DNA of 64,000 nt from Sutcliffiella sp. FSL R7-0096 (lineage in GTDB: Bacteria > Bacillota > Bacilli > Bacillales > Bacillaceae_I): NCBI RefSeq assembly GCF_038595065.1, contig NZ_CP152003.1, positions 4,320,001 to 4,384,000 on the forward strand, written 5' to 3'. The notes under the pieces were generated by a model that saw only the letters and a program-made list of their open reading frames with translations, was not told where the DNA came from and did no database searches. Positions 37,509 through 58,083 of the stretch are shown here, piece by piece; positions within the stretch are counted from its first letter, which is position 1; each line of letters opens with the position of its first letter. The translations under genes and the position numbers were made by a program.

Positions 37509-39371
37509 CTACCTTCCGCCTAATCCTAATCCGTTAATGATTCTATCTAAAAGTTCGTCCGTTAATGTAATCATTCTTGCCGATGCATTGTAAGCATGCT
37601 GGAACTGAATCATGTTGGTCATTTCCTCGTCCAAGGATACACCGCTGACCGATTGGCGACGTTGATCAACAGACAATCGCAATGTTTCACTATTGTAGGA
37701 GAGTCGGTTTGCTTCCTGGGCATCAACCGCCAATCCTCCAATTACACTTTCGTAATAGTTTTGGAAGGTTGTAGAAACACCGTTCAACTGAAGTGTCCGG
37801 GCTTTTACTTCTGCCAATGCAATGGCATTGCTTCCGTCACCTACACGGCCACCGACTTCACCGGTCTTCGGGATATCAACCGCAATGAAATTCCCTTTTG
37901 AAACGTCTTCCAAGCGGACTTTACTCAAGTCAAAATTGACAGAAGGATTGCCAGCCGAATCGACAAACTCTCCCGACAATCCTGCACCAAGGTCTTCTAA
38001 AGTGGAAAAACTTCCAGAAGTCATTAATTCCTGTTTCGGAGACTTTGCTGCATCATAGACAGTGTATGTAAATTGCTGGACCCCATCAGCATCTACTGTC
38101 GACTGCACGGTAACAGACACATTTCCCACTCCGTTATAGCCATGGAACTCACCCGATGTGATGATACCCTTGTTGTAGCCGGAAGCAGCGATATTGTCCA
38201 ACGACTGGACGATATCCGCTGATACCGTGAAAAGTTTTGCCGCATTTTTTATATTACCAGCTACTATATTTGTATTTTTAAATTCAAAGAACTTAAACGC
38301 AGTGTGCTCACCTGTTTCCATGCTCGAGATGCTCCACCCGGATTCATGTACCCTATTGATCTCCTGTGCGAATTCAAACGCCAAGGTATCGAGGTGATTA
38401 AGCATGTCAGGGTAAAGACCCTTTTCTGTATTTCCGTCCATAAATCCGTAAGAATCAATAAGACCTCGAAGCTTGCCGGATGACTGCATGCTACCGATCC
38501 CGAAGCTCGTATCTCCGAGTCTGAAGCCATCCACGAGACCGGTATCCGCTCGATACTCCAAGGAAAGCCTGTTGACTCTATTGCTTGTCGCATCGACCAG
38601 CGTGCCAATTTTACGGCCGGAGTCATCCACCATTTCAATGGTATACTTCCCTTCCGCCAGGGGACTTGCACTACCACCGGTCCCAACTTTTGATACCTTG
38701 ATATTGACCAGCTGAGAAAGCTCATCTACCAGGCGATCGCGTTCATCATATAGATCGTTGGCAAGATAACCATGCGGTTCCAAATCTCCAATCTGTTTGT
38801 TGATATTGTTAATTTGTTGGCTCAGTGCGTTGACTTGCTTTTCCGTGACATCCATTTCATTTTTCATGTCCCCTTGAACCGAACTAAGTGAATCCGATAA
38901 AAACCGAAATGTTTCCGCAACAGCTAATCCGCGCTGTCTTACAACCGAACGTGCCCCTGCATTCGTCGGGTTAACTGCTAGATCTTGAAACGCCTGCCAA
39001 AAACGGTCCAACGTAGTGGAAAGACCAGTTTCGGATGGCTCATTCATGATTTCCTCCATCTTCTGCAGGGAGCCTGCGCGCGCTTCCCAATAGCCAAGCT
39101 TATTGTTTTCACCACGATACTGGATATCCAGGAAACTCTCCCGCACACGCTGGATACTGCCCGCCTCTACCCCTGTCCCCATTTGCCCGGGTATTTGCGG
39201 ACGGTTCATGGAAGCTGGTGGATATGGTTCTGTTTGGACAAAATTGACCCGTTGTCTGGTATATCCTGGGGTATTGGCGTTGGCAATATTATGCCCGACC
39301 GTTTGAAGGGCAGTTTGCTGGGTAACCAGGCCTCGCCTTGCTACTTCGAGACTATGAAATGTTGAACGCAT
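37509..39371 (-). CDS. flgK: Hook-filament junction protein FlgK
   Basis: This 620-residue hook-associated protein 1 has the start MRSTFHSLEVARRGLVTQQT, with ANANTPGYTRQRV near residue 31. The C-terminal VSLDEEMTNMIQFQHAYNASARMITLTDELLDRIINGLG is the standard rod/hook tail motif. It is longer than B. subtilis FlgK (about 507 residues as I recall), so it has an enlarged variable middle domain. Confidence 0.96.
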   Translation of the reverse strand: MRSTFHSLEVARRGLVTQQTALQTVGHNIANANTPGYTRQRVNFVQTEPYPPASMNRPQIPGQMGTGVEAGSIQRVRESFLDIQYRGENNKLGYWEARAGSLQKMEEIMNEPSETGLSTTLDRFWQAFQDLAVNPTNAGARSVVRQRGLAVAETFRFLSDSLSSVQGDMKNEMDVTEKQVNALSQQINNINKQIGDLEPHGYLANDLYDERDRLVDELSQLVNIKVSKVGTGGSASPLAEGKYTIEMVDDSGRKIGTLVDATSNRVNRLSLEYRADTGLVDGFRLGDTSFGIGSMQSSGKLRGLIDSYGFMDGNTEKGLYPDMLNHLDTLAFEFAQEINRVHESGWSISSMETGEHTAFKFFEFKNTNIVAGNIKNAAKLFTVSADIVQSLDNIAASGYNKGIITSGEFHGYNGVGNVSVTVQSTVDADGVQQFTYTVYDAAKSPKQELMTSGSFSTLEDLGAGLSGEFVDSAGNPSVNFDLSKVRLEDVSKGNFIAVDIPKTGEVGGRVGDGSNAIALAEVKARTLQLNGVSTTFQNYYESVIGGLAVDAQEANRLSYNSETLRLSVDQRRQSVSGVSLDEEMTNMIQFQHAYNASARMITLTDELLDRIINGLGLGGR

Positions 39372-39382
39372 GGGTGTTCCTC

Positions 39383-39847
39383 CTAAGCTTTTGAATCGAA
39401 CAGAGAGCGCGCAGGTGCACTAACGCTTTTCTTCGTGTTCACAGGTTTTTCGTAATTTAGCGCATTAGGTTGCGGGTTAAGGGTGTTTATCGTCATGGTG
39501 ACAAATTGCAGGGATTGTTCAAGTAACAGTTGATTGAGCTCGTTTTGCTTTTGGATGTTTGCAATGGTTTCAGCTAATTTGTCTTTCAAGGTAATTAGTT
39601 CAACCTTTTCGCCCGGTGAACACATTTCAATTAGATCGGTCACCGTTTTACCATCGGATAGGGTCGCACGTTGCTTTTCTAGTTGAACAATCGCGCGAGT
39701 GTATTGCTTCTCTTCTCTTGTAATCTCTTGGAGCTCATCTACCTTGTTCGCCTTTACAACCTTTTCTTTCCGTACAGTCACTTCATAAAGGTAAGTATGC
39801 AAGGTGAGCATTTTTTCTAGTATCGTGATAATTGTTGGAATGGACAT
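39383..39847 (-). CDS. flgN: Export chaperone FlgN
   Basis: This 154-residue helical protein would chaperone FlgK and FlgL. FlgN features are the long coiled coil (LTLHTYLYEVTVRKEKVVKA, REEKQYTRAIVQLEKQRATL) and a Ser/Lys-rich tail. It lies directly upstream of flgK (11 bp). Confidence 0.9.
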   Translation of the reverse strand: MSIPTIITILEKMLTLHTYLYEVTVRKEKVVKANKVDELQEITREEKQYTRAIVQLEKQRATLSDGKTVTDLIEMCSPGEKVELITLKDKLAETIANIQKQNELNQLLLEQSLQFVTMTINTLNPQPNALNYEKPVNTKKSVSAPARSLFDSKA

Positions 39848-39873
39848 AGGTTCTCCTTATTTCAAGGCTCTGT

Positions 39874-40008
39874 TAAACACCACTGTTGTTTTTCGCACTA
39901 GGCTTCGCTTTCCGCGGGGCGGTGCTTGAGCCTCCTCCCAACGCTTCAGGGGTCTCAACCTACCGCTACCTCCCGCGAGTCTCCACCTTGTGCTACAATC
40001 AACAGCTA
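39874..40008 (+). repeat. Dispersed GC-rich intergenic repeat, copy 3
   Basis: Blocks GGCTTCGCTTTCCGCGGGGC, TTGAGCCTCCTCCCAACGC, GGGGTCTCAACCTACCGCTA and GCGAGTCTCCACCTTGTGC. It is in the same orientation as the copy at 30305. It lies between flgN and flgM, genes that are adjacent in B. subtilis. Confidence 0.72.
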
Positions 40009-40043
40009 GGATTCTTATAATGCTTCTACATGCTCTAACAGCC

Positions 40044-40307
40044 CTATTTATTAAAATAAAAATCTATCATCTTACTAGCAACAGCCTTAGGGTCTACCTT
40101 GTAGGTGCCGTTTTCCACAGAAACCTTAAGCTTTGCGATTTTTTCCTGTCGTGCCTCTGCAAATTGGGAACGCTCCTGCATTTCTTTTGCTTTACTGGAG
40201 ATTTCCACCTGATCGCTCTTTGCCTGATTAGGCGTCTGAACCTGCTGTTGTTTCATATGATTCTTATAGGGGTTGACTCCTGAAGGACCAATATTATTAA
40301 TCTTCAT
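40044..40307 (-). CDS. flgM: Anti-sigma-D factor FlgM
   Basis: This 87-residue protein holds sigma-D until the hook is complete. Typical FlgM: MKINNIGPSGVNPYKNHM at the start and the C-terminal sigma-binding helices IAKLKVSVENGTYKVDPKAV with ASKMIDFYFNK. A consensus sigma-D promoter lies 40 bp upstream, so it is under its own target factor's control. Confidence 0.95.
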   Translation of the reverse strand: MKINNIGPSGVNPYKNHMKQQQVQTPNQAKSDQVEISSKAKEMQERSQFAEARQEKIAKLKVSVENGTYKVDPKAVASKMIDFYFNK

Positions 40308-40346
40308 TGTTATCCCTTCCTTTTCGAACAGTTTATCTATCTATGA

Positions 40347-40373
40347 ATATCGGCACAGATTAACGAATGTTTA
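40347..40373 (-). promoter_or_regulatory. Sigma-D promoter of flgM
   Basis: On the minus strand TAAA (40373-40370), exactly 15 nt, then GCCGATAT (40354-40347): a perfect match to the sigma-D consensus. The -35 overlaps the last codons of the upstream YvyF-type gene. Confidence 0.88.
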
Positions 40374-40787
40374 TAGGAATTTCTTATCAATTGCATGGTA
40401 GGTTCTTCCTTCGCTCCGGATTACCCGCTGTCTTTCTTCTTCACGGTCCAATTGCGAAAGTTGTCCCTGGATATCTTTTTTACAACCAATACACAGCTTA
40501 TCCTCTCTAATCATCCTACCACAACGGTCGCACGGATACCCCAAATTTGGAAATTGGGTCAGCTGGATGCGGCCTTTACAGATGAACTTGAGGATCAACG
40601 ACTCTGCCACGCCCGTATTTTCCACGACTTGGTCCAAGCTTGCCATTCTGTTATCTCGTTGTCGGATGTACTTGTATACAGTCTGATACTGAACTTCCTC
40701 TTCTTTATAACATGCTTCACACACTTCCCTGAAAGCATTTTTTACATAAATCTCTCCACAGTTTGGACAATTATCGAGCTGGGACAT
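40371..40787 (-). CDS. yvyF: YvyF-type flagellar operon zinc-finger protein
   Basis: This 138-residue protein belongs to the family found between comF and flgM. An N-terminal zinc finger (CPNCGEIYV, CEACY) is followed by an HTH-like region with CKGRIQL, a second Cys pair (CDRCGRM) and CIGC. Function is uncertain; a regulatory role is often assumed. GGAAG precedes the ATG at 40787. Confidence 0.88.
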   Translation of the reverse strand: MSQLDNCPNCGEIYVKNAFREVCEACYKEEEVQYQTVYKYIRQRDNRMASLDQVVENTGVAESLILKFICKGRIQLTQFPNLGYPCDRCGRMIREDKLCIGCKKDIQGQLSQLDREEERQRVIRSEGRTYHAIDKKFL

Positions 40788-40848
40788 GAGGCAACTTCCT
40801 TTCGAGCAAAAGTTTCTTACTTTTTATATCGTAAAGGAAGCAAAAAAG

Positions 40849-41568
40849 TTAACTGCGAACTAAGGTGAGCGAAAAAATATCGGTCGCCCCTGCCTCTAGC
40901 AGGACTTTTGCGGCCATTCGTAAAGTCGTTCCGGTTGTGTAAATATCGTCGATCAGAAGTACACTTTTCCCTTTGACCTTTTGGGGTGCGGTGACGTAAA
41001 AAGGATTCTCTTGCTGCAGTCGTGACCTGCGTTCTTTTTTGGACTGCTTAACAGAGTCCGTTTTTGCTAGGGGTTCAGTTATTTTACTTGGAGCTAAAAG
41101 GTGTGCTAAAAGCAGGGACTGGTTGAACCCCCGCTCATAAAGGCGTTTTAGCCCTAAGGGAATAGGAACCAGTATACACTGCTCTTTTTTGAATTCCTCT
41201 TCATACATTTTCCGAAAATCCCTATAAAAAGCTTTTGCAATGATCGCATCCCCTCTAAATTTGTATAGCGCCAACGTTTCCTTCATGTATTTGTTATAGG
41301 CAAAAACAGAACGATTCATCTTTAGCATTCCAGCTGTCTCATCATCACTTTCCCACCTGTGGCAATCAAAGCAGATATCCCCATGCCGATTTTCCACCGG
41401 GACCTCCTCCCAAACCCTGCCACATATCCTGCATAACTTACCGCTGATTTTCTGAAAAGCTTGCTCACAAGATTCACATACTTTTTCTGGCTTGCTAATA
41501 CCTAAGAATTCACCCCATCCAAATGAGCGAGCCACCTCGTCCTGACAGATCAAACAGTTACTCATCAA
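40849..41568 (-). CDS. comFC: ComFC-type phosphoribosyltransferase-like competence protein
   Basis: This 239-residue ComF protein is needed for transformation. The N-terminal zinc finger has CLICQDE, CESCEQ, CRICGR and CFDCH. The C-terminal PRTase domain has the PRPP-binding loop VLLIDDIYTTGTT (about residues 201-213). It overlaps comFA by 11 bp. No comFB lies between them, unlike B. subtilis. Confidence 0.93.
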   Translation of the reverse strand: MMSNCLICQDEVARSFGWGEFLGISKPEKVCESCEQAFQKISGKLCRICGRVWEEVPVENRHGDICFDCHRWESDDETAGMLKMNRSVFAYNKYMKETLALYKFRGDAIIAKAFYRDFRKMYEEEFKKEQCILVPIPLGLKRLYERGFNQSLLLAHLLAPSKITEPLAKTDSVKQSKKERRSRLQQENPFYVTAPQKVKGKSVLLIDDIYTTGTTLRMAAKVLLEAGATDIFSLTLVRS

Positions 41569-42535
41569 GATATCCCCCCGTCTTCGCTCGATAGTTCATA
41601 CGCCTGATTTGATCAATTGCGGCTACCATCTCACGTGTCCTACCGTAATGAAAAAACCTCACATCCCCTTCCGGATGCTGACTACTTCGGCCAGCCCTGC
41701 CTGCAATTTGCACGAGGGCACTTTCCGTAAACAGATTGTCCTCCGCTCCAAGTACACCAACTTGAACATCTGATACCGTAACTCCTCGCTCCAGTATAGT
41801 GGTCGTCACCAAAACTTTTACCTTTCCCTCCCGGAAATCAGCCACCTTTTCTTTTCGTTTCTTATCTTTGGCATGAACCCCAGCCACAAGCTCTCCATAA
41901 TCCTTTTGTAGGATAACGACAATCCGTTCGAGCAGATCAATAGTAGGAACAAAAAGAAAAGTGGGTCGGTTTGCCGCATGGTGCTTTCGGACCCAATAAA
42001 GCACATTCCCAGGAAGCCTGTTTTTCTTCACCCTTTTTTCCCAGTCCCCACACCACTCCATGAATGGGACCGGTAAAAGGTGCTGGTGATACCTCGCGGG
42101 AATGATGACAGAAGAAAGCTTGCCTGAATGTACTGCACGCTGCATTTTCTTAGAAGGAGTTGCACTCAGATAAATAGTGCTCCCTCCTTCTGTCTGAGCT
42201 TGTCTCGCTGCATATTCCAACGCAGGGTCGACCGAATATGGGAAAGCATCCACTTCATCAATAATGATGGTATCAAAGGCGCTGTAGTAACGAAGTAGCT
42301 GATGGGTCGTTGCGATGGTAAGCGGAGAGTTCTTCGTTCTGTCCTCACTGCCTCCATACAGGGTGGCAATCTCCATTTCCGGAAACACCTGTTGGAGACG
42401 AGGAGACAGTTCTAGGGCAACATCGGTACGCGGCGTAGCGATGCATACCCGCTTGCCTTGGGTCAAAGCTTTTTCTATTCCTTTAAAAAGAACCTCTGTT
42501 TTTCCCGCACCACAAGTGACCAGTAATGAATACAT
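41558..42535 (-). pseudogene. comFA: ComFA DNA helicase, 5' part removed by the prophage
   Basis: ComFA is the ATPase that helps pull single-stranded DNA in during transformation. Only 325 residues remain (B. subtilis ComFA has about 460). The reading frame opens four codons before the Walker A motif CGAGKTE, so the Zn finger and N-terminal region are missing. Motifs that remain are the DEVD box (IIIDEVDAFPY), LSATPSKKM and motif VI QIAGRAGRSS. The first few codons (MYSL) and the missing promoter come from the prophage side. A precise excision could restore the gene; the missing half should lie at the far end of the prophage. Confidence 0.88.
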
Positions 42536-42540
42536 AATTT
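42505..42540. other. Prophage-comFA junction, probable attachment site
   Basis: ComFA sequence becomes recognisable at LVTCGAGKTE, encoded by 42528-42499, and phage coding begins with the stop of the gene at 42542. The crossover core therefore lies within this stretch, most likely in or beside CTGGTCACTTGTGGTGCGGG. The exact core needs the other junction. Confidence 0.65.
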
Positions 42541-42541
42541 T

Positions 42542-42769
42542 CTACCTCACGTCAATTTGACGCCCGCATTTCGTACACTCAAATAAATCCTCCTGGATCT
42601 CCAAGTGATGTTTAAGTTTCCGGCAAGTTTGGCATGATAGTGTTACAAGGCGTCCAGGGCTTTTCGTTCCCCCGACCAACATATTTTCCTGGACGTCTTC
42701 CTTATTCCTAAATATACATACTGCAAATGACGTCACAAGAACACCAGTTACCAGGCTTACTACCTCCAT
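42542..42769 (-). CDS. Small membrane-anchored zinc-ribbon protein, phage end
   Basis: This 75-residue protein has an N-terminal hydrophobic segment (EVVSLVTGVLVTSFAVCIF) and a CxxC...CxxC pair (CQTC, CTKC) likely to bind zinc. GACGTC lies exactly between its ribosome site AAAGGAGAG and the ATG. It is the gene nearest the attachment site, and its stop lies 7 bp from the comFA fragment. Family unknown. Confidence 0.65.
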   Translation of the reverse strand: MEVVSLVTGVLVTSFAVCIFRNKEDVQENMLVGGTKSPGRLVTLSCQTCRKLKHHLEIQEDLFECTKCGRQIDVR

Positions 42770-43044
42770 GAAGACGTCTCTCCTTTCAACATGTATGTGA
42801 CGTTCGGTGCGTCATGTTTCTTAACCGGTAACACTCTGTACGCCTCATAGACACCAAACTCATTCTGCAGCTGTTCCACCATCAAGGTGTCATCCAGGCA
42901 CCTCTCCAAGATCAGTCCGGCCAAGGTGGTAGGTTTCTTATTACAAGCTGTAGCCAACCTGTTCAAATTCTTTAAGTAACTATTACTCAATGATACTCCA
43001 ACTCTATTTATCTTCTTATTGCCTAACCCCTTCCCTTCTATCAC
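42760..43044 (-). CDS. Possible ribbon-helix-helix DNA-binding protein
   Basis: This 94-residue protein is read from GTG at 43044, eight bases after AAGGAGG; an ATG in frame at 43074 lacks a ribosome site. The segment NRVGVSLSNSYLKNLNRLAT followed by KPTTLAGLILERCLDD has the strand-helix-helix pattern of CopG/Arc-type repressors (about residues 13-50). It could bind the GACGTC cluster that covers its own operon. No close family recognised. Confidence 0.6.
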   Translation of the reverse strand: MIEGKGLGNKKINRVGVSLSNSYLKNLNRLATACNKKPTTLAGLILERCLDDTLMVEQLQNEFGVYEAYRVLPVKKHDAPNVTYMLKGETSSWR

Positions 43045-43108
43045 ACTCATAACCTCCTTAAATGTCATTACCAATTGACAATGGCAACCGTGTTACAGTG
43101 TAACTAGG

Positions 43109-43474
43109 TCACCCGGGGAGGAAGAGGCTAATCCCCCCGCGATTTTTAACCTCTATTCTTCTCCCCTGCCCTTGGGACTCTAAGACGGGAGCAGGGACGT
43201 CAACAGGCTTCATTTGCCCGTATATCTCGGCATTTTGTTCTAGCCAATACTTAGCCTCCCTCATGGACCATTTAGGCTCCGGAAGAGGGACGTCAACCCT
43301 CTCCTCCTGCTCATAAAAGTATGGCTTCATCAGCTGGTGAAATTGTGGAGAATAGGCAGCCGTAAATAATGCAGCTCTAATAATTTGATTGCGATCCAGG
43401 GACGTCACCTTAAATACGTCATCAACATACTTCCTGAAGACGTCATGATACCTTACTGTTGGACGGTACACCAT
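43109..43474 (-). CDS. Uncharacterised phage protein
   Basis: This 121-residue protein begins MVYRPTVRYHDVFRKYVDD. DRNQIIRAALFTAAYSP (about residues 29-45) looks like the helix-turn-helix part of a ribbon-helix-helix or related small DNA-binding fold. The second half repeats a VDVPxPxP motif (VDVPLPEPK, VDVPAPV), encoded by GACGTC-containing codons. Its ribosome site GGAGGAGG is followed by GACGTC before the ATG at 43474. Confidence 0.6.
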   Translation of the reverse strand: MVYRPTVRYHDVFRKYVDDVFKVTSLDRNQIIRAALFTAAYSPQFHQLMKPYFYEQEERVDVPLPEPKWSMREAKYWLEQNAEIYGQMKPVDVPAPVLESQGQGRRIEVKNRGGISLFLPG

Positions 43475-43589
43475 TAGAGGACGTCACCTCCTCCACCATT
43501 TCTAAAAGCAATGAGTGCCCTTCAGACGTCAGAAATACGTCTGTACGCGCCAATAAGACTTCTGCCAACTCTTTAGTCATGCTTAACAA
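43443..43589 (-). CDS. 48-residue protein upstream of the GACGTC operon
   Basis: A short frame from TTG at 43589, with AAGGAGG eight bases upstream, ends at TGA 43445-43443 inside the next gene. The product (MLSMTKELAEVLLARTDVFL start, helical, acidic) has no recognised family. The overlap with the next gene suggests translational coupling. The ATG at 43580 is an alternative start. Confidence 0.5.
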   Translation of the reverse strand: MLSMTKELAEVLLARTDVFLTSEGHSLLLEMVEEVTSSNGVPSNSKVS

Positions 43590-43759
43590 TAAAACCGCCT
43601 CCTTGGGGTCATTTTGGCGCCCTTTTGACGCCTTTAATAAAACTTATGTAGGTGAACTAAAAATATGTCTTGTTTACTTAACTTTTTTATTCTTTGATTC
43701 ACTAACGATTAGAGGAATTATTTTAAAGAATGTGGAATGATACAAATGGAGGTGTCGTG

Positions 43760-44017
43760 ATGCCTATTAAAGGATTCACTTGTAATCTAAGAGTGATATT
43801 AGCCGAAGAGAAGACGAGAAACCCAGCCTTTACTCAGAAGAGGCTTGCAGAGAAAATAGGATTAAGCAGGACTGCTCTTAATGCCCTGGTAAATGAAAAC
43901 ACCTTACCAAGCTTTGAGACAGCTTATGCAATAGCAACTGAACTAAATCGACCAATTGAACGAATTTGGGTGAAATTCGATAATAGAGTCGAAGACCAGG
44001 AGAATGATAGTGTATGA
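43760..44017 (+). CDS. XRE/Cro-type helix-turn-helix regulator
   Basis: This 85-residue DNA-binding protein has an HTH covering TQKRLAEKIGLSRTALNALVN (about residues 29-49), then SFETAYAIATELNRPIERIW, the standard XRE layout. The start is ATG 43760, after GGAGG; the upstream ATG at 43730 is not supported. It is transcribed away from the GACGTC genes across a 170-bp divergent promoter region and heads a four-gene cassette. Confidence 0.85.
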   Translation: MPIKGFTCNLRVILAEEKTRNPAFTQKRLAEKIGLSRTALNALVNENTLPSFETAYAIATELNRPIERIWVKFDNRVEDQENDSV

Positions 44018-44223
44018 GTAAACAGCGAATTGAAGTAGGAGACACCATTCGAAACTCCGAAAATGGTTTAATTGGAGTTTTAAAAAAAGAAGTTGATAGA
44101 AAGAATTATTATGTTGAGGGTTATCATGAATATGCTGGTAAGTGGCAAACAGCAGGGGGATCTTTAAGCGACTATCAGAAATGGGATTTGTACCAGAAAG
44201 GTGAGAATGATAACATTACATAA
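44014..44223 (+). CDS. Small uncharacterised protein in the XRE cassette
   Basis: This 69-residue protein begins MSKQRIEVGDTIRNSENGL and has alternating polar and hydrophobic strands (IGVLKKEVDRKNYYVEGYHE), which suggests a small SH3-like beta barrel. Its ATG overlaps the XRE gene's stop (ATGA), so translation is coupled. Function unknown. Confidence 0.65.
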   Translation: MSKQRIEVGDTIRNSENGLIGVLKKEVDRKNYYVEGYHEYAGKWQTAGGSLSDYQKWDLYQKGENDNIT

Positions 44224-44245
44224 TATTAACAAACGAGGTGTTTAT

Positions 44246-44722
44246 ATGTCAGTTGAAAATTTACTACCTGCATTGCATACGTTCACTCTAAGAAATCCAA
44301 ATAACAAACAAGATTTCCTTATTAATTTAAAAGAAATGGATGGACAATGTCTTGAGGTCAAGTTTGATTTATCCGGGTTGGACAAGCTTGTAAACCCAAT
44401 AACCGGAAAAAGAGTGCCATTTTATCTTTATTTGTTTTTATTTCATCAAAAGGGTGGGAAAGAAGTTGAAATATTATCATCCGCCAGTTTTTATTGCGAT
44501 GAAAATAAGCTTGAGATTGGAAACCTAGGGATGGAAACTCCTTTAAAACTTCCTGAAGATATTGAATCACTAATCGGTGATTTTACTAACAACTTTTTCA
44601 GTATTGAACTTCTATATTCGCCAAAAGAGCTTGAAGATGGATCAGACTTAAACCTATTATTAAATAATCCGGAAAGCAGACTCTTCAAATCAAAAGTAGC
44701 AATTATTTCGGAGGAATATTAA
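44246..44722 (+). CDS. Uncharacterised protein in the XRE cassette
   Basis: This 158-residue soluble protein starts at ATG 44246, after ACGAGGTG; the frame runs open upstream to 44201 inside the previous gene. It is mixed alpha/beta in pattern, with FLINLKEMDGQCLEVKFDLS and acidic C-terminal regions. No membrane segment or known motif. The following gene's ATG overlaps its stop (TAATG). Confidence 0.65.
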   Translation: MSVENLLPALHTFTLRNPNNKQDFLINLKEMDGQCLEVKFDLSGLDKLVNPITGKRVPFYLYLFLFHQKGGKEVEILSSASFYCDENKLEIGNLGMETPLKLPEDIESLIGDFTNNFFSIELLYSPKELEDGSDLNLLLNNPESRLFKSKVAIISEEY

Positions 44723-45261
44723 TGTCCAGGTCAATTTTTCAAATGGAACAGTCCAAAAGGTTTAATCGTAAAGTTGTTCCTTTGTTACCAAGGAATGATA
44801 TAATAAACAACAAGAAGTACACTCCATATAATATCCCCTTAACTTCATTTCAAGAAGTAGCAAGCGGAAAAGACTCTTTTCAAGAGGGTGAAGAAATGAA
44901 AAATGAACAGGAATATACAGGTATATTATTTGAAGAACTAAAGCGAGATATTAGAGAACGTGAAGAACGATCAAGGAGAGAAATAAGCGAACGAGAAGAG
45001 CGTTTCTTAAAGCAAATGGAGCAATTTTCAAAAGATGCAAAAGAACGTGAAGATCGTTATCGAGAAGAAGCAAAAGAACGTGAACTAAGAATTTCACAAT
45101 CTATTGAAACTTTACAAACTGAATTCAAGGAAACAAAAAAGGATCTTGTGGATACTTCCAGGTATATTAAAACCCTTTCCATTACTTCTATTATTGCTCT
45201 AGTAACAACTGGAGTTGCGATTGCAGGTGTAGCAATAACAATATTTATGACTATAAAATAG
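44722..45261 (+). CDS. Coiled-coil protein with C-terminal membrane anchor
   Basis: This 179-residue protein has a long charged coiled coil of repeated ERE/REERSRRE-type units (about residues 65-135). A single C-terminal transmembrane helix follows (TSIIALVTTGVAIAGVAITIFM). The start at 44722 follows GGAGGAATATTA; a second start at the internal MKNEQEY (44896) with GAGGGTG is possible. A tail-anchored coiled coil next to a repressor in a prophage suggests superinfection exclusion or a holin-like role, but this is only inference. Confidence 0.7.
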   Translation: MSRSIFQMEQSKRFNRKVVPLLPRNDIINNKKYTPYNIPLTSFQEVASGKDSFQEGEEMKNEQEYTGILFEELKRDIREREERSRREISEREERFLKQMEQFSKDAKEREDRYREEAKERELRISQSIETLQTEFKETKKDLVDTSRYIKTLSITSIIALVTTGVAIAGVAITIFMTIK

Positions 45262-45262
45262 A

Positions 45263-45292
45263 AAAAGCCCCTCCGATTAAGGAAGGGCTTTT
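45263..45292. terminator. Bidirectional terminator between the XRE cassette and lysis genes
   Basis: AAAAGCCCCTCC pairs with GGAAGGGCTTTT around GATTA. A-tract and T-tract flank both sides, and it separates convergent genes. Confidence 0.88.
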
Positions 45293-45295
45293 AAT

Positions 45296-45406
45296 TTACA
45301 TCTTTTCCAATTTAATATTATTCGCGCTAATTAAGATTGATTTTTCCATTACCTTTACCTTTGTTTTAGACTGATTATCTTTAGATACGACCTCAAATGT
45401 TGCCAC
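45296..45406 (-). CDS. 36-residue phage protein
   Basis: A short frame from GTG 45406 with an excellent ribosome site (AAGGAGGGG, 6 nt before). The product starts MATFEVVSKDNQSKTKVKVM and is basic with no membrane segment. It is the last gene of the lysis operon, 24 bp after the amidase. Family unknown. Confidence 0.6.
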   Translation of the reverse strand: MATFEVVSKDNQSKTKVKVMEKSILISANNIKLEKM

Positions 45407-45430
45407 TAGAATCCCCTCCTTTATAATTTT

Positions 45431-46327
45431 TCACAAAGATCTATAAAACTTACCCATCGCCTCAGCAGCTTCGTAACGATCTTTCCCGGTTAACTCCACA
45501 AACTTGTTCCCTTTAAGACCTTCTTTAGATCCCCCGCAAACGAGAATTTCCTTTGCTACTTGGACTTGAGTTGCAGTAGTTCTTAGAAAAATTGGTACTT
45601 TCAACTTTCCTGCAATAAGCTCTGCAGAAGGGAAATCAGAATACTGATTAATGACAATTGCTTTCTCTAACATAAATGGTTCCTCCTTTTTAGGTGGTAC
45701 TGGTTTAGGTGTGGGCTTTGGTTTAGCCGGAGCCGGATTAATCGGAATTACCCCGTGTGTCATGTCCAGAAGTACTTTGTAGTAAGATGCCCTCGTCACC
45801 ATTGGAGCAGGACAGTTTTTCCCTGTTACGTCATAATGACGTACAAAACGGTTATATGTGTCTTTCAACTGAGGGAAGCGTTTTTGTAACATTTGATGGA
45901 CCAATGCAGTTCTTTTAAGTGTATTGGGATGAATAGATCCATCACTTTCCTGACACATTTCTACACTTATAGTTAAAAGGTTTGCGTTACCCCCTGGATA
46001 TTGAGGGCTTGTCGCACGTAAGGTGGATAATAACGGTCCTTGTCGTCTATCGTTTGCTTGGAAACACACTTCATCCAGAGGAACAAGTTCTAAAGCCTCA
46101 ACCTTGTCTACAAATATATGTGCGCTGGCATACCTTTTCTTATCTTCTGGTTGTTTATCATTTAGATCAGGTAATGAGCTATCGAAATAGGTAAAGTGGT
46201 TAGCTGCGGAAGCCCCATGATTTGCAGTAGCGTGGTCAATAACCGCTTGGACCCTGAGTAGTTTAATTCCTGGTCTTGTAGTAGGATGTCTACGGATGTG
46301 CCTCTTTTTATAATTCAAAGTAACCAT
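45431..46327 (-). CDS. Phage endolysin, N-acetylmuramoyl-L-alanine amidase
   Basis: This 298-residue lysin cuts the amide bond between MurNAc and L-Ala. The amidase_2 (PGRP-like) domain covers residues 10-190, with zinc ligands likely His in IDHATANHG and His in RFVRHYDVTGKNCP. A Pro/Lys linker (PAPAKPKPTPKPVPPKKEE) leads to a cell-wall-binding-2-like domain with GKDRYEAAEAMGKF. AAAGGAGAG selects ATG 46327 over 46345. It has no signal peptide and so depends on the holin. Confidence 0.92.
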   Translation of the reverse strand: MVTLNYKKRHIRRHPTTRPGIKLLRVQAVIDHATANHGASAANHFTYFDSSLPDLNDKQPEDKKRYASAHIFVDKVEALELVPLDEVCFQANDRRQGPLLSTLRATSPQYPGGNANLLTISVEMCQESDGSIHPNTLKRTALVHQMLQKRFPQLKDTYNRFVRHYDVTGKNCPAPMVTRASYYKVLLDMTHGVIPINPAPAKPKPTPKPVPPKKEEPFMLEKAIVINQYSDFPSAELIAGKLKVPIFLRTTATQVQVAKEILVCGGSKEGLKGNKFVELTGKDRYEAAEAMGKFYRSL

Positions 46328-46372
46328 AAAGATCTCTCCTTTCAAAATGAAAAAGCCACCACGAATGGCAGC

Positions 46373-46759
46373 TTAAATTTCTTCCTTCTTTTCTTCCTCT
46401 TGAATAACATGGAGTTTTTCACTGATAACCTTTGGAACTCTGACACCTACTTGAGCAAGGTTTTCAATAATCGACAGAATTTCATTTGCCAAATAAAAAA
46501 GAACCGTAGCATATGCCACCGCTCCATTTAACCCAAGAATATTATCTATTACATTTGCAACAATGATGACCCCAAACACTAACATTTTTCTGGCATAACC
46601 GAATAATGCATTTCGGCTTCTTAGCCGTTTTAATTTGATTGCTTTAAATATGCCTGTAATGATATCAATAAGCATAAGTAGAGCTAGAAAATCCAAAAAC
46701 TTCACTCCGCCAAATAGGTATGCTTGTACGATTTGTAAACTTTCAATGTTTATCCACAT
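46373..46759 (-). CDS. Phage holin (phi-29/toxin-secretion holin family)
   Basis: This 128-residue membrane protein forms the lysis pore. Hydrophobic helices are at about residues 17-36, 56-76 and 80-100, with the family-typical DIITGIFKAIKLKRLRSRNALFGYARKM between them. A charged Glu/Lys tail (EEEKKEEI) closes the protein. It lies just upstream of the endolysin. Confidence 0.92.
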   Translation of the reverse strand: MWINIESLQIVQAYLFGGVKFLDFLALLMLIDIITGIFKAIKLKRLRSRNALFGYARKMLVFGVIIVANVIDNILGLNGAVAYATVLFYLANEILSIIENLAQVGVRVPKVISEKLHVIQEEEKKEEI

Positions 46760-47866: not shown

Positions 47867-50800
47867 TTAAGTAGTCCTCCTCATAGTATGAACACTAACG
47901 CCGTCTACATAAAACTGAATGCTGCCATTATTGATTCTGATATAGTTGTTGTTGTCCCTCATAATACGTAAGTCCCCGCCTGTCATATCTATTTGAGCAT
48001 CTCCTATGCCTAGGAAGAACTTTACCGGATCAATTAATCCCCTTAATCTATTGATATTCAAATTTCCTTGCACGTTAATCCCCCTGCCGACACCAGGAGT
48101 AAGGTTGATATCTCGCCCTCCTGAAAGAACTATATCCCTTGAAGCATATAAAGTAGCATCATGCGTATTTGCATTTATTCTACTAAACTGCAAACTAGAC
48201 CAAGGCAACCCGTTTTCTTCTGAACGCAATTGAATTCCATTACTGTCTGTGACCATAGTTACTAAGGAACTACTAGAAAACAGGCCTTCCCCATTGGAAA
48301 GTCGTGCAATCCGATTCGCATTTGTGGATTCAACTCTATCTGCAGATAGCGAAATAGAACCTTGACTCCCAACAGTAGAGATATTTACTCCAGAGATATT
48401 ACCAGCTGTGACAGTACCCAAGTTTGCACTAAGTGCAGATAAGGAGGTTACACTTATCTGATTAGCAGTGACGGTATTGGTCCGAATTCTTCCTCCGTTT
48501 ATTTCCGTTGTGTTGCCCCAGACCCAATTATCTACTAACCGAGCTGAACGTGATGCCTTAATAACAGATAAAGGATCCACTTCTTGCACTTTAGGATTCG
48601 CAACCCAAACCTGTCTGACTGTTCCGGCATTCGACCAATTTAAAAACCTGATCCGGATTCGTCTTATATTTGGCCGGAAACGTGCTATTTGGCCTACACC
48701 GTTACCGACTCCTATCACATCAGTCCCTAGTGTACCAGATGGCATGATATATCCAACTAATTGTACCCAATCCGTCGGAACCTCTGGAGCAGAATAAAAA
48801 TAAAAGTTTGTGTTATTTGCAGTTACAGAGCCATTACTTACGTTTATTTGATCAAATCCAACATTGATACTGTTTTCGTCAAGTCCAGTCAATCCAAAAT
48901 ATATCCGCCCAGCGTTTGCGCTTTTCTTTATCCATAACGATACCTCATAAGCCTTGGAAGTATCTATGTCAAAGTATCCGCTGTAATTTTGCGTATCAGT
49001 CGAAACGCTTGACTGTAATACGGGAACACTAAGACCATCAAACGAATGATTAACCACACTTAATCCAGAAGCGTTCCACCTTCCGATTCCTTTTCCTGCG
49101 GTAGGATTGTCCACAAGGTTGCCGGTGTTTTGATTTGTGTACACAATCGCTTCGTCACGGGCCGAATTCGCTTTGCTCTGTGCCCCTGTTGGAGTTTCCT
49201 TTGTGGAAGGGTCATAATTATTACTGAAAGTCACGTTACCATCTATATGAATTCTAGATGAGAGAATCCTTGTTCCCTCTGTACTGAGATTAATGGCAGC
49301 GACTACTCCATTTTTTTCTACTCTTGCATTTAATTCACCTGGTAGTAAGGCTAGGGTAGTCTCTGCGGTGCTCATACGTCCTGTTAAGCTGTTTACCTCT
49401 TGTTGTGATGCTTTTGCATTTATCTGTCCAGGTAAGATTTGAAGGGATGCTTCTGCCGATGTTAGTCTTGCATCAATATCTTCTGGTGCAGGAGTCCAAT
49501 CCGTAGCTTTATTACCAAACTCTAGTTTCACTTCTTTTAAACTGACGTTTCCTGTAGCATCCCTCATTAGTACGGTGTAGGAAGCTATATTAGAAATTTC
49601 TTTATCTTGAATAAGTACTGTTCGGACATATTTTTTCCAATCACTCGTTCCAGCTTGTACAACCCTTTGACCAAGGCTAATATACATTATGGAATTATCA
49701 GCAAACCTTATTCCCATTTCCACGCCTAACCATGGGTTGCTTGTTCCATAGGCTAAATCCGTGGTTTTGACTAAAAAAGAAAGGGTTACAAATCTCCCTT
49801 TCATTTCCTTGATTGTTGATTCAGAAAGGGACATTCCATGCGATGACTTAGGATGTGATTGTCCTAAACTAGTAACGTTCCAATCAAATTGTTGGTTAGT
49901 GTTCCTTAATAAATTCCTTCCACCAATCTCCAAGTTGTTTAGATCCGCACGAACCTCACTAACACTAGCCACAATTTCGTTTGCTTTAATATCGAGATTG
50001 GCAATTTGACTTTTAGCAGAATTTAATTCTCCGGTTAGAGAATTAATTTCTGTCTCAGTGTTAGAGACACGGGTGGTGACACCTGAAAGGGCCACATCAA
50101 GTTGAGACATCTTATTGTTATATACGTTAGTGTCTATCTTCTTTCCAAGTTCAACATTAACTTCAGACTTGGTGTAAACATCTGAAGCATTTGCTTTGAA
50201 AGATACCTGACCAGCAAGAAGTTCGATGCTCCCTTCAGTCGTTGTGACTCTTCCCGTCAAGGTGTCCACCGTGTCTTTATTGGCTTTGCCGGAGAGAATG
50301 CCAGCCTGTTGTTCAATGGTGATTTGTTGTTCAGTAACCACACCATTCAAAACGGATAACTCGTTGATAGTGGTGCTTATACGGCCATTGATGGTATCCA
50401 CGTTTTGCTCCACATTCACAATTCGATTTCCATTTACTAAGAGATCGAGTTCCAATTGATTTGCACGTAATAACAAATCATCGGCAATACCTTGAACTCG
50501 TGAAATTTCTGAATTAACATCACCAATACGATTATTCAGGTCTTCTAAAATCGCTTGTTCTGCTGCTTCTATTTCCGCCCTGGTGTATCCCCTTGCTTCC
50601 GTGATTAATTCCTCTTTGGCACTCTCCACCACAATGTCTGTATACCATGTAGAGTCATCATACACACTTCGGTCTTTTTGATCTACGGTTTCCTTATCAT
50701 AGGCCCCCACTTCTTCAGCAAACGTAGGAGTCGCTTTCTCCCACTTCTGGGCATAGTGGTTCCAAGTGAAGATAACGTCTAGTTCTCCACTAGTATCTAC

Positions 50801-51934
50801 CCATACCATTCCTTGACGTGGGTTAGGTGGGGGGGTGTCTCTTCGGATGACTTTCTGACCGTATAAGATTTGGAGTTGCAAGAAAGTTTTCATCAGATCT
50901 TCTTCGTTATACTCAATAAAGTCACCCAGGACGTATTTCCGTTTTACTTTACCAGCTGCAATGGATCGTTGAATTTCAATAACCCGTGCTTCTAAATACA
51001 ATGGGGGCACATAGGAAGTATCAATGATGCGATTTGTATCACCCAGACGGACCTTTTCATGGGTGTACCCAAACACTTCCTCCATCGCTACTGCCTCGGC
51101 TGTATATTGGACTGTGGTGTTTATACGCTTGTCCAATTGTGCTTCCCCAAGCTCCTTTAAGCGTGCTGTAGTTACGTTATCATCAGAAATAGACGGTTCA
51201 TAATCTTCCCATAGGTGATTACCATCCCGGGACCATCGTTTCCTAGCTTCCTCGTTTTTAACTTCAACGATTAGCCTGTCACCGTCCTCCTGCTCCGGTC
51301 CCAGCACCCGAAGGGCAGTAACGATATCAGCGTTTTCAATGCGCTCTACACCAATGAGGTCTTTCCCTATCCTGGTTTCTTTCTTGGTGTCCTCTCCGCG
51401 TTTTTTAATCATATCTACGTATCTACCTACAATACGGCTACCATCTACTACTATTCGGAAACGAAGTTCCAAACCATATAAACTAGCAAGCTGCTTCAAC
51501 GTCTGGTAAGGATCCTGATAACCCTCAATGGTTACTTTCCGTATTCCGGCATACTCTGTGATACCACGTTGCCATCCAGTGCCAGCTAACGTCCAATCCA
51601 TCGACATATTGACTGTCTGGCCTTCTAAAACTATTGGAGAAATCCTCTTGCTTTTTTTTAACTCAATGTAAGAGGCCACTGTCTTTACTTGTTTCTTTTT
51701 GTTTAGTTGGATCGTATCCAAAATGATGAATTCCCTATAATGGCCATCGTCATCCGGAATAATCACTCGGTTACGCCTGGTAGCATGTGCAGCATTTGGT
51801 GTGGTTGCTAGAATAGTGAAATCATAGGTTTCGAAGTTCTTAATATTATCAATGTGTATATCATCAAAAAAGGCGGGGGCATTAATTTTGTTTTCCAAAG
51901 TGCATAGTATTTCATCGGTTTGATGATGTAACAA
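47867..51934 (-). CDS. Large phage tail protein with Prophage_tail-type N-terminus
   Basis: This 1355-residue structural protein sits at the tail tip and probably contacts the host. The N-terminal ~370 residues match the tail-hub/endopeptidase type (TLAGTGWQRGITEYAG, IGKDLIGVERIENADIVTALRVLG). There follow coiled regions repeating SLTGRMSTAETTLALLPGELNAR-like units (about 470-890), two IGGRNLLRNT/GNLVDNPTAG-type carbohydrate-binding-like blocks, and a beta-helical C-terminus (GGRDINLTPG). It starts 10 bp after Dit. Confidence 0.88.
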   Translation of the reverse strand: MLHHQTDEILCTLENKINAPAFFDDIHIDNIKNFETYDFTILATTPNAAHATRRNRVIIPDDDGHYREFIILDTIQLNKKKQVKTVASYIELKKSKRISPIVLEGQTVNMSMDWTLAGTGWQRGITEYAGIRKVTIEGYQDPYQTLKQLASLYGLELRFRIVVDGSRIVGRYVDMIKKRGEDTKKETRIGKDLIGVERIENADIVTALRVLGPEQEDGDRLIVEVKNEEARKRWSRDGNHLWEDYEPSISDDNVTTARLKELGEAQLDKRINTTVQYTAEAVAMEEVFGYTHEKVRLGDTNRIIDTSYVPPLYLEARVIEIQRSIAAGKVKRKYVLGDFIEYNEEDLMKTFLQLQILYGQKVIRRDTPPPNPRQGMVWVDTSGELDVIFTWNHYAQKWEKATPTFAEEVGAYDKETVDQKDRSVYDDSTWYTDIVVESAKEELITEARGYTRAEIEAAEQAILEDLNNRIGDVNSEISRVQGIADDLLLRANQLELDLLVNGNRIVNVEQNVDTINGRISTTINELSVLNGVVTEQQITIEQQAGILSGKANKDTVDTLTGRVTTTEGSIELLAGQVSFKANASDVYTKSEVNVELGKKIDTNVYNNKMSQLDVALSGVTTRVSNTETEINSLTGELNSAKSQIANLDIKANEIVASVSEVRADLNNLEIGGRNLLRNTNQQFDWNVTSLGQSHPKSSHGMSLSESTIKEMKGRFVTLSFLVKTTDLAYGTSNPWLGVEMGIRFADNSIMYISLGQRVVQAGTSDWKKYVRTVLIQDKEISNIASYTVLMRDATGNVSLKEVKLEFGNKATDWTPAPEDIDARLTSAEASLQILPGQINAKASQQEVNSLTGRMSTAETTLALLPGELNARVEKNGVVAAINLSTEGTRILSSRIHIDGNVTFSNNYDPSTKETPTGAQSKANSARDEAIVYTNQNTGNLVDNPTAGKGIGRWNASGLSVVNHSFDGLSVPVLQSSVSTDTQNYSGYFDIDTSKAYEVSLWIKKSANAGRIYFGLTGLDENSINVGFDQINVSNGSVTANNTNFYFYSAPEVPTDWVQLVGYIMPSGTLGTDVIGVGNGVGQIARFRPNIRRIRIRFLNWSNAGTVRQVWVANPKVQEVDPLSVIKASRSARLVDNWVWGNTTEINGGRIRTNTVTANQISVTSLSALSANLGTVTAGNISGVNISTVGSQGSISLSADRVESTNANRIARLSNGEGLFSSSSLVTMVTDSNGIQLRSEENGLPWSSLQFSRINANTHDATLYASRDIVLSGGRDINLTPGVGRGINVQGNLNINRLRGLIDPVKFFLGIGDAQIDMTGGDLRIMRDNNNYIRINNGSIQFYVDGVSVHTMRRTT

Positions 51935-51944
51935 ATGTATTTGA

Positions 51945-53372
51945 CTAATGGTAAGGTCCCCTCACTTTTGCTTCGACGTCTACAGCATCTCCAGGAGAAA
52001 TGACTAGGGCGGTATCGCCCGGCTTGATTGGGAAGAAGGAAGAGATAAAATCACCTTTCAGCTTCTTCATATCTTCACCGTTTATTAGGATCAAGTCTTT
52101 TTTAAAGTCCATTACAATCTCGTCTCCTGGTTGGGCGATGTTAGGCACCACCGCACCGGATAGATCGTTTACTTTTTCAACCCATATATGATTTACCGTC
52201 ATGTAGGCTGGTGTATTTTGCCCACTAACAGCAGCATGAATTTTAATTCCTGCAAGGTTTGCAGAAACACTCTCATCCAAGATAGACCCTTGCATTTCCC
52301 CGACATGCTGATTGGAAATGTTGGCTACATACGCTTCCCATTTCCCTTTTACACGCTTGAGTCGAAGGATTCCCGTAAAGAAATCAAACATCTTAGGATC
52401 CGCAGGTTGTCCAGCGATGATAAAGGTACCGCCAAACAACGGACCCACTCTCGCTTCAGCTTGTTGTTTGTATTCGTAACGGTGGATATCTTTGAATGCC
52501 AATTTTCCAAAGGCATTTCCGTTTTCATCTAACAAGTAAAGCTCAATCCTACCCACACCATCATTGCTTGGAGAATAAAAGGTACACTGCATGACCACTT
52601 GGAAATCTTGTAATGGTTGTGAAACGGATTTTTGTAATGCAGGTCCGTGCCAAGCTTCTCCTGTTCCAAAATTACTAACTCTAAATCCATTTTCTGTAGC
52701 TTGGAAACTACCCGAAATGACTCCTCCATCCACATTATGAGCATTTGTCCAGCCAATCAGAGTGCGCATAGTATCGGATAGAATGGTTTCTGTAGGATTG
52801 ACAATGGTTTCTTCAACCGTTACTGGTCTACCAATTCTCATGTACTTATCCGGACCAATGATATCCAAGTGTGTAATTGGTTTCTTAACTAAAAACTTAA
52901 ATTCTGGATATGCTTCAACGGTTCCTGGGTTGGTCATGATTAACGTAAATGTGCCACTTGTTGATGCAGACTTTGTAAAGGTAAGTTGTGGTCCATATTT
53001 GAAAGGATCTGCACAAATAAAAGTAAGAAGCCCTTTCCCTTTATCCAGAACTTCCTCCAAGTTTAACTCTCCGGTGAGTTCTGCATAATACACTCGATCC
53101 GGTTCATCTGGAAAAACAAGATTCCTAGGGCCGTCCTTAATCAACCACTTGGCTAAATCTTCTTTAACTTTTTGTAGATTAAGTGCCCCTATCCCTCTGA
53201 CTTCCACTGGGACGTATAGAATTCTAACTTTTCTCTTCTTCTCGACAGCAATACCGCCCGCGCTACCTGGCACCTCAATTATTTCATGTTCAATCGGAGC
53301 CCAGGATGGTCGCTCCACCCCTCTTAATGCCCTGATATAGGACTTGGTAATGTTATCATAATAGAAACTCAA
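51945..53372 (-). CDS. Distal tail protein (Dit), long form
   Basis: This 475-residue baseplate hub protein links the tail tube to the tip. The N-terminal Dit domain starts MSFYYDNITKSYIRALRGVE and includes RKVRILYVPVEVRG and the LNLEEV segment. The long C-terminal insertion (about 200-420, GVISGSFQATENGFRVSNF) looks like a lectin-type domain, as in evolved Dit proteins that bind cell-wall sugars. Confidence 0.88.
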   Translation of the reverse strand: MSFYYDNITKSYIRALRGVERPSWAPIEHEIIEVPGSAGGIAVEKKRKVRILYVPVEVRGIGALNLQKVKEDLAKWLIKDGPRNLVFPDEPDRVYYAELTGELNLEEVLDKGKGLLTFICADPFKYGPQLTFTKSASTSGTFTLIMTNPGTVEAYPEFKFLVKKPITHLDIIGPDKYMRIGRPVTVEETIVNPTETILSDTMRTLIGWTNAHNVDGGVISGSFQATENGFRVSNFGTGEAWHGPALQKSVSQPLQDFQVVMQCTFYSPSNDGVGRIELYLLDENGNAFGKLAFKDIHRYEYKQQAEARVGPLFGGTFIIAGQPADPKMFDFFTGILRLKRVKGKWEAYVANISNQHVGEMQGSILDESVSANLAGIKIHAAVSGQNTPAYMTVNHIWVEKVNDLSGAVVPNIAQPGDEIVMDFKKDLILINGEDMKKLKGDFISSFFPIKPGDTALVISPGDAVDVEAKVRGPYH

Positions 53373-53383
53373 GTTATCACCTC

Positions 53384-56300: not shown

Positions 56301-57031
56301 ACAAGCCCCACGCTCATTGTTTCCTGGAGGGTTGTCCACATGTTCATATCCATTTTCCCAGTTTGCAAAGCCTTAATATATTGATCTGTCCCACGTTTTG
56401 CATCAACTGCACTGGATCCAGAACCAAGTAGTGCATTATTCAATGCAAGTGCTGATTCTGTTGCCAAATCCATATCATTGAAGGAGGTGTACATTCTTTG
56501 TGCTATCAAAGCAATTTCATCAAGTTTGGTAGGTAGCCCGTCAATTCCTTCGGATAGCCTGGACATAGCACGTTCTGAGTCCTTTGCAGATACACCTAAT
56601 GCTTGTAGTACTTTAGGGAACTTGTTAAGTGTGTCGAAACGACTTATCGCATCATCCATAGATGACTTTAAGACACCGAACGCAGCGGATGCTATGGCGA
56701 TAAGTCCGATGGCTACTGCAAACTTTTTAGTTCTGTCCGATGCTTTATCAGATTCATCAGCTATCCCTTTTGTTTCATTCTTAGCCTTGTTTAAATCGTT
56801 AGCAGCTTCACTGGCTTCACTGGAAACCTGGTCTAAACTATTTGATACACCTTTAACACTCTTGGAAGCTTCCACACTACTATCACTGATGTTGTCCATT
56901 GCCTTTTCGGCTGCTTTGACACCTTTACTAGAATCTAAGCTAGTTTTTTCGAGCTTATCTAGTTCTTTAGATGCCACAGATACTTGTTTACCATCTACTT
57001 CGATATCTATTTTAATTCTACCGTCTGCCAT
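53384..57031 (-). CDS. Tape measure protein
   Basis: This 1215-residue protein sets tail length and is ejected with DNA. The N-terminal coiled coil (residues 1-110) is followed by the tape-measure domain (SRLSEGIDGLPTKLDEIALIAQRMYTSF). A hydrophobic pair lies near 365-500 (VKVLMGPVGWVTLGIGALVG), followed by long heptad-rich segments and C-terminal GLNQGLLAGRGQVLSTA repeats. It is the largest gene of the tail module after the tail protein, as expected for a long-tailed siphovirus. Confidence 0.93.
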   Translation of the reverse strand: MADGRIKIDIEVDGKQVSVASKELDKLEKTSLDSSKGVKAAEKAMDNISDSSVEASKSVKGVSNSLDQVSSEASEAANDLNKAKNETKGIADESDKASDRTKKFAVAIGLIAIASAAFGVLKSSMDDAISRFDTLNKFPKVLQALGVSAKDSERAMSRLSEGIDGLPTKLDEIALIAQRMYTSFNDMDLATESALALNNALLGSGSSAVDAKRGTDQYIKALQTGKMDMNMWTTLQETMSVGLVKIAEGFGMTETEMYQALQSGTISMDQFNAKLIEVGTGTGIMAKLAKDNSLGIATSLGNLRNAAARGVAGMIDSFNKLSRDATGKEIAENIDGLKVIVNQSFKVIQKTIEGTTPYVKGFTSAVQSTLPVVKFLSPALIGLASAYAMHKVIHLTTAAIKANTTAVAVGTTVKKLYILAITESSTGYLVNAASAKVATVATKARSAVLVTATTVELLFTRQITLANVALYAKAVAVGVVGKALKVLMGPVGWVTLGIGALVGAAVGLIKWLNRSSEEAKRLNAEAEDLSSSIDSLNDELDSSNEAFRKNQNELKATAEENVNLAKKVEDLAAKENKSAAEKQLLSAYIEEMNGNVKDLNLSFDEEANALSMSSEELSARVDLMKEEEKLISARERQVEISKEQNEVDAKLEEINALRAEWSEKVKENAVSAGDAEKAFASLDEKEAALKETNAKLGEQHKETEILVSEAADGMAAAIEEGNIRQQFSYEALEGANKAAFDSMKDSYESLKDAATDAFDKIETKTDHTMKSMTETMLHNQKAVEEWSQNQAKLMKWAGENGYDSFIPYIESMGIDSAAELAVLAQAGEDELKNFADAVEGGAVTATDALKTTLGDGFDESIALVTGYVDDMSVSMKDQVKKSDFASIGKDVATGFSGGVVAGTPEAEKAAANMAKATEEAARKQAETRSPSRVFKRIGNDITAGLALGINDGTSQVTQAIQKLFKSIQTDSELSFKSITKNHHNSVKDIEKSFDNLKVVTQTGMKNMLDRLRDGSNRQKDVVRGLARDMLSPFNNTPSQFHSIGRNSMAGLNQGLLAGRGQVLSTARTIANQVASTMKSALRIHSPSRLMRDDVGRFIPEGIAVGIKENAKSVYRELDILSKNMVLSSTPEQALGTSRMAYASSSSQVMDPFKRVPLPGNNTSNSNMNLTGLISAIERLAARPIRVGIDGHEFIEATVDGMDAALQFKQARKDLF

Positions 57032-57601: not shown

Positions 57602-57609
57602 TTAATCAC

Positions 57610-58059: not shown

Positions 58060-58083
58060 GTTCATCCTCCTTTACATTGTAAA

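Follow-up and report, generated by a model that had tools for sequence, protein, structure and literature searches.

The window, a stretch of 64,000 nucleotides, corresponds to bases 4320001-4384000 of a single contig of 4,908,118 bp and holds, on the minus strand, the 3' part of the competence helicase gene comFA (41558-42514). This part comprises host codons 181-498 and the stop, from the Walker A motif onward, and its end is overlapped by comFC (40849-41568, minus strand). It makes up most of an ORF (41558-42535, minus strand) encoding the motor part of ComFA, with matches to the Helicase_C, DEAD and ResIII domains. The remainder of that ORF, at 42515-42535, belongs to the phage, which thereby supplies the ATG annotated as its start: it lies in frame within a phage att half-site (42515-42537, minus strand), giving the sequence MYSLLVT-CGAGKT.

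The 5' part of comFA, of 180 codons plus TG, was found on the same contig past the end of the window, at 84180-84721 in window coordinates (4404180-4404721 of the genome), also on the minus strand. The two halves are set apart by an insert of 41,667 bp, and since both flank it, the claim of the first-pass annotation that a prophage interrupts comFA holds. That annotation rightly placed the start of the C-terminal half at Walker A and saw that the N-terminal part and the region upstream were replaced at the junction. Its figure of about 140 lost residues has to be corrected to 180 displaced ones, and these, together with the region upstream of them, are not gone but lie beyond the window. The sequence to the right of position 64000 contains what it had suggested looking for, namely the comFA 5' half, a serine-type integrase and a shared core, and the far end of the insert is thus in comFA rather than in another gene. 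The crossover TG lies at 42513-42514 (minus strand) at the junction with the 3' half and its counterpart at 84180-84181, beyond the window, at the junction with the 5' half. On the comFA strand, the 5' half terminates in ...TTTGGGCAGTC-TG-AACAGCC, and the 3' half opens with ...CTGGTCACT-TG-TGGTGCGGG.

When the flanks were joined in silico with a script, they gave a ComFA frame of 498 codons without internal stop, in agreement with the earlier idea that precise excision could restore the gene. The N-terminal half is intact, is present as a single copy in the genome (at E≤0.001) and matches the N-terminal half of the nearest relative at 79%. A comFA match was present in all 40 relatives searched and forms one open frame of 448-555 aa in 39 of them, the remaining one (G027) having the gene in two pieces with stops. 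Within the genus, the two halves form one uninterrupted open frame in each of the 15 other genomes, so a short ComFA without a prophage is not a trait of close relatives. Relative-rate counts for the N-terminal half gave 14 amino acid changes specific to the host vs. 7 specific to G013 with G003 as outgroup (p=0.19), and 14 vs. 6 with G002 as outgroup (p=0.12), while those for the C-terminal half were 11 vs. 16 and 15 vs. 11, respectively. These counts would be compatible with decay of the comFA halves or with none, and neither show nor exclude it.

Prophage content and integrase

The in-window part of the prophage spans 42515-64000, and the element continues to 84181. Starting from comFA, and all on the minus strand, there are three small ORFs directed towards comFA and comFC (42542-43474), the endolysin and holin genes (45431-46759), genes for a tail tip/minor structural protein, Dit, tape measure, major tail protein and head-tail adaptors along with unnamed ORFs (47867-60016), and genes for the major head, scaffold and minor head proteins (60342-63466), with the portal gene extending to 65223. 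Beyond the window, a gene for a CI-like repressor with an S24 domain (82117-82773) and the integrase gene (82786-84144) are both on the plus strand. From the insert, 66 ORFs of at least 45 aa were picked, of which 50 were scanned against PHROGs. The matches include 1) for packaging and head, both terminase subunits, portal, major head, scaffold and adaptors, 2) for tail and lysis, major tail, tape measure, Dit, tail-tip/minor structural protein, holin and endolysin, 3) for replication and recombination, a DnaB-like helicase, a DnaD-like loader, RecT and a RuvC-like resolvase, and 4) for control, an antirepressor, the repressor and the integrase. No stop or frameshift was noticed in the integrase, in either comFA half or in the key phage genes scanned. 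The insert therefore looks like a complete temperate siphophage, and the S24 peptidase domain suggests that its repressor might be under SOS control.

The integrase, of 452 aa, is encoded by an open frame that stops 35 bp short of the junction. It combines a catalytic Resolvase domain with a long C-terminal Recombinase domain and a zinc ribbon, matches phrog_95 (integrase) with an E value of 2.4e-120, and is 46.3% identical to the A118 integrase over 99% of its length. By these criteria it is a large serine integrase of the A118 subfamily, with predicted recombination activity, and the guess that it might be of the serine type was correct. The same cannot be said of the suggestion that the structural genes are A118-like. 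The major head protein has its best match, among those listed, in Latilactobacillus phage TMW 1.591 P1 (73%) and is 66% identical to that of Bacillus phage BCJA1c (NC_006557), with which the tape measure shares 47% identity. For the tape measure, 23 of the 678 matched records were Listeria phages, none of them among the best 12. The integrase is thus A118-like, the best listed structural matches lying with other phages. The order of head and tail genes is similar to that of BCJA1c, and DNA similarity to phage records covers 4% of the stretch 42514-64000, in BCJA1c. Unlike here, the BCJA1c integrase is annotated as a two-piece gene with ribosome slippage, and this phage is absent from the best 30 of the 959 records matched by the integrase of the host prophage.

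Attachment site and related prophages

In the host, TG is the only sequence common to both junctions, attP and attB being otherwise unrelated. It forms the first two bases of the Cys codon preceding GAGKT in the motif CGAGKT, and attB therefore overlies Walker A. When the phage ends were rejoined, 18 of 23 positions of the attP arms were complementary outward from TG, compared with 9 of 23 for the arms of attB. Among 30 comFA genes, both TG columns are invariant, and the 44-nt window of attB, with a conservation of 0.80 (mean 0.684, maximum 0.836), comes 45th among 1451 such windows; it is thus well conserved, though other windows are more so. In A118, attP requires specific sequence 22 bp on each side of a 2-bp crossover (PMC3556126), and the attP described here resembles it in having a 2-bp core flanked on each side by about 22-23 bp of imperfect palindrome. 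Like the Listeria phages A118 and U153, which reside in comK, the prophage thus pairs an integrase of this kind (46% identical) with a competence gene as target, but the target is comFA instead of comK and the core TG instead of GG.

Related integrase loci were gathered from genomes and viral contigs, and 69 were examined. In 25 of these, the integrase is at least 46.5% identical to that of the host. The comFA 5' half directly adjoins the integrase in 12 of the 25, one (L054) is in a peptide-synthetase-like gene, two (L043 and L052) resemble by eye an uninterrupted attP, and for the other 10 the sequence is too short to place the insertion site. Ten of these 12 records also yielded the comFA 3' half, each time as a frame of 289-345 aa that is not full length; the other two are viral fragments. 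Both junctions were resolved in 10 of 11 lysogens examined, including the host. The host and the nine others all have the same site, a TG core and an open joined frame, with 11-19 of 23 complementary arm positions. Among the hosts are Bacillus sp. J33, Bacillus sp. MM2020_4, Neobacillus niacini, N. notoginsengisoli, Cytobacillus stercorigallinarum, Alkalihalobacillus sp. BA299 and Bacillus massiliglaciei, together with genomes G251 and G287. A phage-supplied start codon was discarded as a conserved feature, the resolved lysogens having ATG (2/10), GTG or TTG (5/10) or no start (3/10). At E≤1e-90, the integrase was detected in 4 of 398 sampled genomes of the class, and comFA is split in all four.

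G305 (locus L119) was excluded from the resolved lysogens because its 5' junction fell outside the search pattern, but its prophage is also within comFA, close to the same place. Here, the comFA 3' half carries two TAG stops and a frameshift; to judge from this, the gene has decayed after insertion, and the disruption can become permanent. An integrase tree was made of 29 sequences (30 chosen loci and the host, minus L129 and L094; A118 was not included), in which the 12 comFA/Walker A rows, G305 and five unlabelled rows form one clade of 18 (support 100/100). Separating the site label from the "other comFA" rows (G305 and L128) takes two changes, and a single change in 15% of bootstrap trees, so the tree does not set G305 apart.

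Several other loci deserve mention. G251 carries an identical second copy of the integrase (L054/L131), the one lying in the gene judged peptide-synthetase-like from its translation, perhaps a secondary site used if comFA is occupied. In G287 (L055, L118), the comFA halves are about 1 Mb apart across contig ends and in the orientation opposite to the usual, and their coordinates and strands suggest a later inversion. In the viral contigs L128 and L129, comFA is interrupted elsewhere, at about residues 424 and 272 in host ComFA numbering, next to remoter serine integrases (38% and 30% identity, respectively). A single-protein scan of the viral contigs for comFA fragments irrespective of integrase found none, and an alignment scan found three, including one on the L040 contig.

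The study that described comFA prophages in 2016 is reportedly the work of Croucher and colleagues. It places a prophage in the 5' half of comFA in Bacillus cereus VD214 and another in comFA of B. thuringiensis tolworthi, with integrases resembling that of the Listeria comK prophage (LMRG_01511), and comFA prophages with A118-like integrases are thus already known since that year (PMC4774983). As far as these cases are described there, the prophage studied here shares with them an integrase of the Listeria comK type, insertion in comFA (in its 5' half in B. cereus) and the splitting of a competence gene between attL and attR. It differs in host lineage, the sites being likened by description, and we add to those reports the core at base level, the attP arms, the placement on Walker A and a companion gene. 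Searches of the literature, covering titles and abstracts with few subscription papers or preprints, returned no such comFA insertion in another lineage. Prophages of this kind with A118-type integrases now extend past the reported B. cereus group, with the insertion site fixed to one dinucleotide within Walker A in ten lysogens from several genera. Among other cases described, comFA is likewise interrupted by prophages in Streptococcus suis, in the 3' half, and in S. equi (PMC4774983), SpST71A disrupts a different late competence gene, comGA, in Staphylococcus pseudintermedius (PMC7029219), and the targets of large serine recombinases are stated to be enriched in competence genes (PMC10083194).

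A small gene accompanying the integrase

We compared host ORFs of at least 35 aa in the right half of the element (64001-84181) with eight loci of the integrase clade, seven of them represented by early regions of 19-20 kb and the eighth, L052, by 7.3 kb. With ORFs located within the integrase gene set aside, a 78-aa ORF (81427-81663, minus strand, beyond the window; L002:17427-17663) had the widest distribution, being found by tblastn in six of the eight loci, while the repressor was matched in five, in one of them over 57 residues only. An iterated profile retrieved the 78-aa family in all eight. With that profile, which was trained on these very loci, the family was found beside the integrase in 25/25 loci of the clade vs. 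0/44 loci with remoter integrases, for 39 of which the scan covered 2 kb or more of the corresponding side. These 25 do not count as independent cases, since they include near copies or the same records (L049 and L060, L044-L046, L054 and L057). A second model, built from 16 members with none from G251, G287, G305 or G224, was run on the 398 genomes and matched five, i.e., the four integrase carriers and G224. In G251, both copies were matched, the matches running over a TGA. G224 (L148) has a homologue of the 78-aa protein, and the 19 kb read there contain no related integrase.

In L136, L139 and L052, the small gene is present and the repressor has no tblastn match at E≤1e-4, which indicates that the gene follows the integrase and not the repressor. 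It is among the first genes of the operon leading away from the repressor. Small size, operon position and linkage to the integrase are traits expected of a directionality factor, and we propose on these grounds that the 78-aa protein is a candidate excision factor of the integrase; it might also be an early regulator. At E≤0.1, the protein matched nothing in PHROGs, nor, by tblastn, anything in 50,697 phage records, and its AlphaFold model, which is weak (mean pLDDT 69.6, pTM 0.34), has no PDB match at E≤0.001. The literature searched (titles and abstracts, few subscription papers or preprints) yielded nothing on it, and its occurrence beside this integrase clade looks new. Two other candidates were dropped. 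One was a homologue of Gp44, which we take to be the directionality factor of A118: none was found in the prophage, where the best tblastn match had an E value of 0.04 over 22 residues inside another gene, and the excision step accordingly rests on prediction. The other was a YqaI-like ORF of 65 aa (78483-78680, Pfam match), with a tblastn match in one of the eight early regions. Retrieval of matching directionality factors is named as a future direction in PMC10083194; for the excision factor missing here, the 78-aa protein is a candidate that can be put to the test. We are evenly divided on a wider proposal, in which the integrase and the 78-aa protein would form a dedicated cassette for integration into and excision from comFA Walker A, exchanged among otherwise different phages, with the 78-aa protein as a new directionality-factor family, and in which these phages could hence switch comFA between split and whole across many Bacillus-like hosts.

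Host operon and readings of the insertion

Downstream of comFA and on the same strand follow comFC, a zinc-finger-like ORF, flgM (40044-40307, minus strand; the third gene after comFA), flgN and flgK. Directly upstream of flgM is a sigma-D-like site, TAAA-N15-GCCGATAT (40347-40373, minus strand). Judged against what we take to be the sigma-D consensus, it is the window's only single-mismatch match; if up to three are allowed, there are 105 matches, with 79 expected. This suggests that flgM and the flagellar genes may keep a promoter of their own. The first-pass annotation held that comFC would depend on phage or read-through transcription. Loss of the comF promoter is upheld, and the next gene too is predicted to be cut off from it, the refinement being that flgM has its own sigma-D-like site. 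In B. subtilis, ComK-driven read-through from comFA into flgM lowers motility (work of Liu and Zuber, described in PMC4793158). A predicted second effect of the insertion is the loss of this competence-driven read-through in the lysogen.

On the phage side, the lysis genes are followed by a 12-pair terminator-like hairpin (45263-45292, minus strand), which would stop late phage transcripts ahead of comFA, and the three small ORFs at 42542-43474 are a possible source of read-through towards comFA and comFC. Within 200 nt upstream of the host TG, a strict script found no terminator-like hairpin and a separate scan one weak 5-pair site, while in the same interval upstream of the core the script found hairpins in two of the ten resolved lysogens (G434 and G287). 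Over 39300-46400, promoter-like sites (12, against 13.3 expected) and terminator-like sites (7, against 6.8 expected) are no more frequent than by chance.

Very probably, then, a temperate siphophage with an A118-type large serine integrase recombined its attP into the Walker A attB of comFA. The two imperfect inverted arms of attP around TG would recombine with attB over the Walker A codons, leaving a lysogen that should be ComFA-negative, because the ATPase part is severed from the N-terminal half, and in which DNA uptake would presumably fail. Such failure would shield the prophage from removal by transformation, as PMC4774983 argues for insertions of this type, holding that they block transformation. 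SOS induction would inactivate the CI/S24 repressor, a directionality factor, for which the 78-aa ORF is our candidate, would let the integrase recombine attL with attR, and exit of the phage would restore comFA in any surviving cell.

Exit and return might instead be under host control, making comFA an on/off switch as proposed for Listeria comK and by the first-pass annotation. The intact halves and restorable frame in all ten resolved lysogens, the candidate directionality factor linked to the integrase, and the open frames of ComK (two copies), ComEC and ComGA in the same genome speak for such regulation, which is possible. We nonetheless find it unlikely, given that only four of the 398 sampled class genomes have the integrase at E≤1e-90, that comFA is uninterrupted in the 15 other members of the genus, that it has decayed in the relative lysogen G305, which argues against a general switch, and that no host signal is known. 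Permanent loss, with a prophage unable to excise and comFA a two-piece pseudogene, would fit the lack of a recognized directionality factor and the slight, nonsignificant excess of changes in the N-terminal half, but it is quite improbable for an element whose integrase, comFA halves and scanned key genes read through without noticed stop or frameshift.

That the phage ATG keeps a Walker A-containing ComFA motor expressed, with partial function, has in its favour the host's in-frame ATG 21 nt before TG and, in five other resolved lysogens, a GTG or TTG in frame 6-33 nt ahead of TG. Yet ATG is usable in only two of the ten, the open phage stretch of three others offers no start in frame, five are closed by an in-frame stop 12 nt ahead of TG, and the protein would lack the N-terminal half with its cysteine pairs, all of which makes this reading very doubtful. 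An assembly or annotation artefact is barely credible with a single 4.9-Mb contig, a matching core at both att junctions and the same site in other assemblies. The preferred reading remains integration by an A118-type integrase at Walker A, in a genome whose ComK-family genes lie at 1403600-1404043 and 4483460-4483891; two or more ComK matches, some of them fragments, were found in all 16 genomes of the genus.
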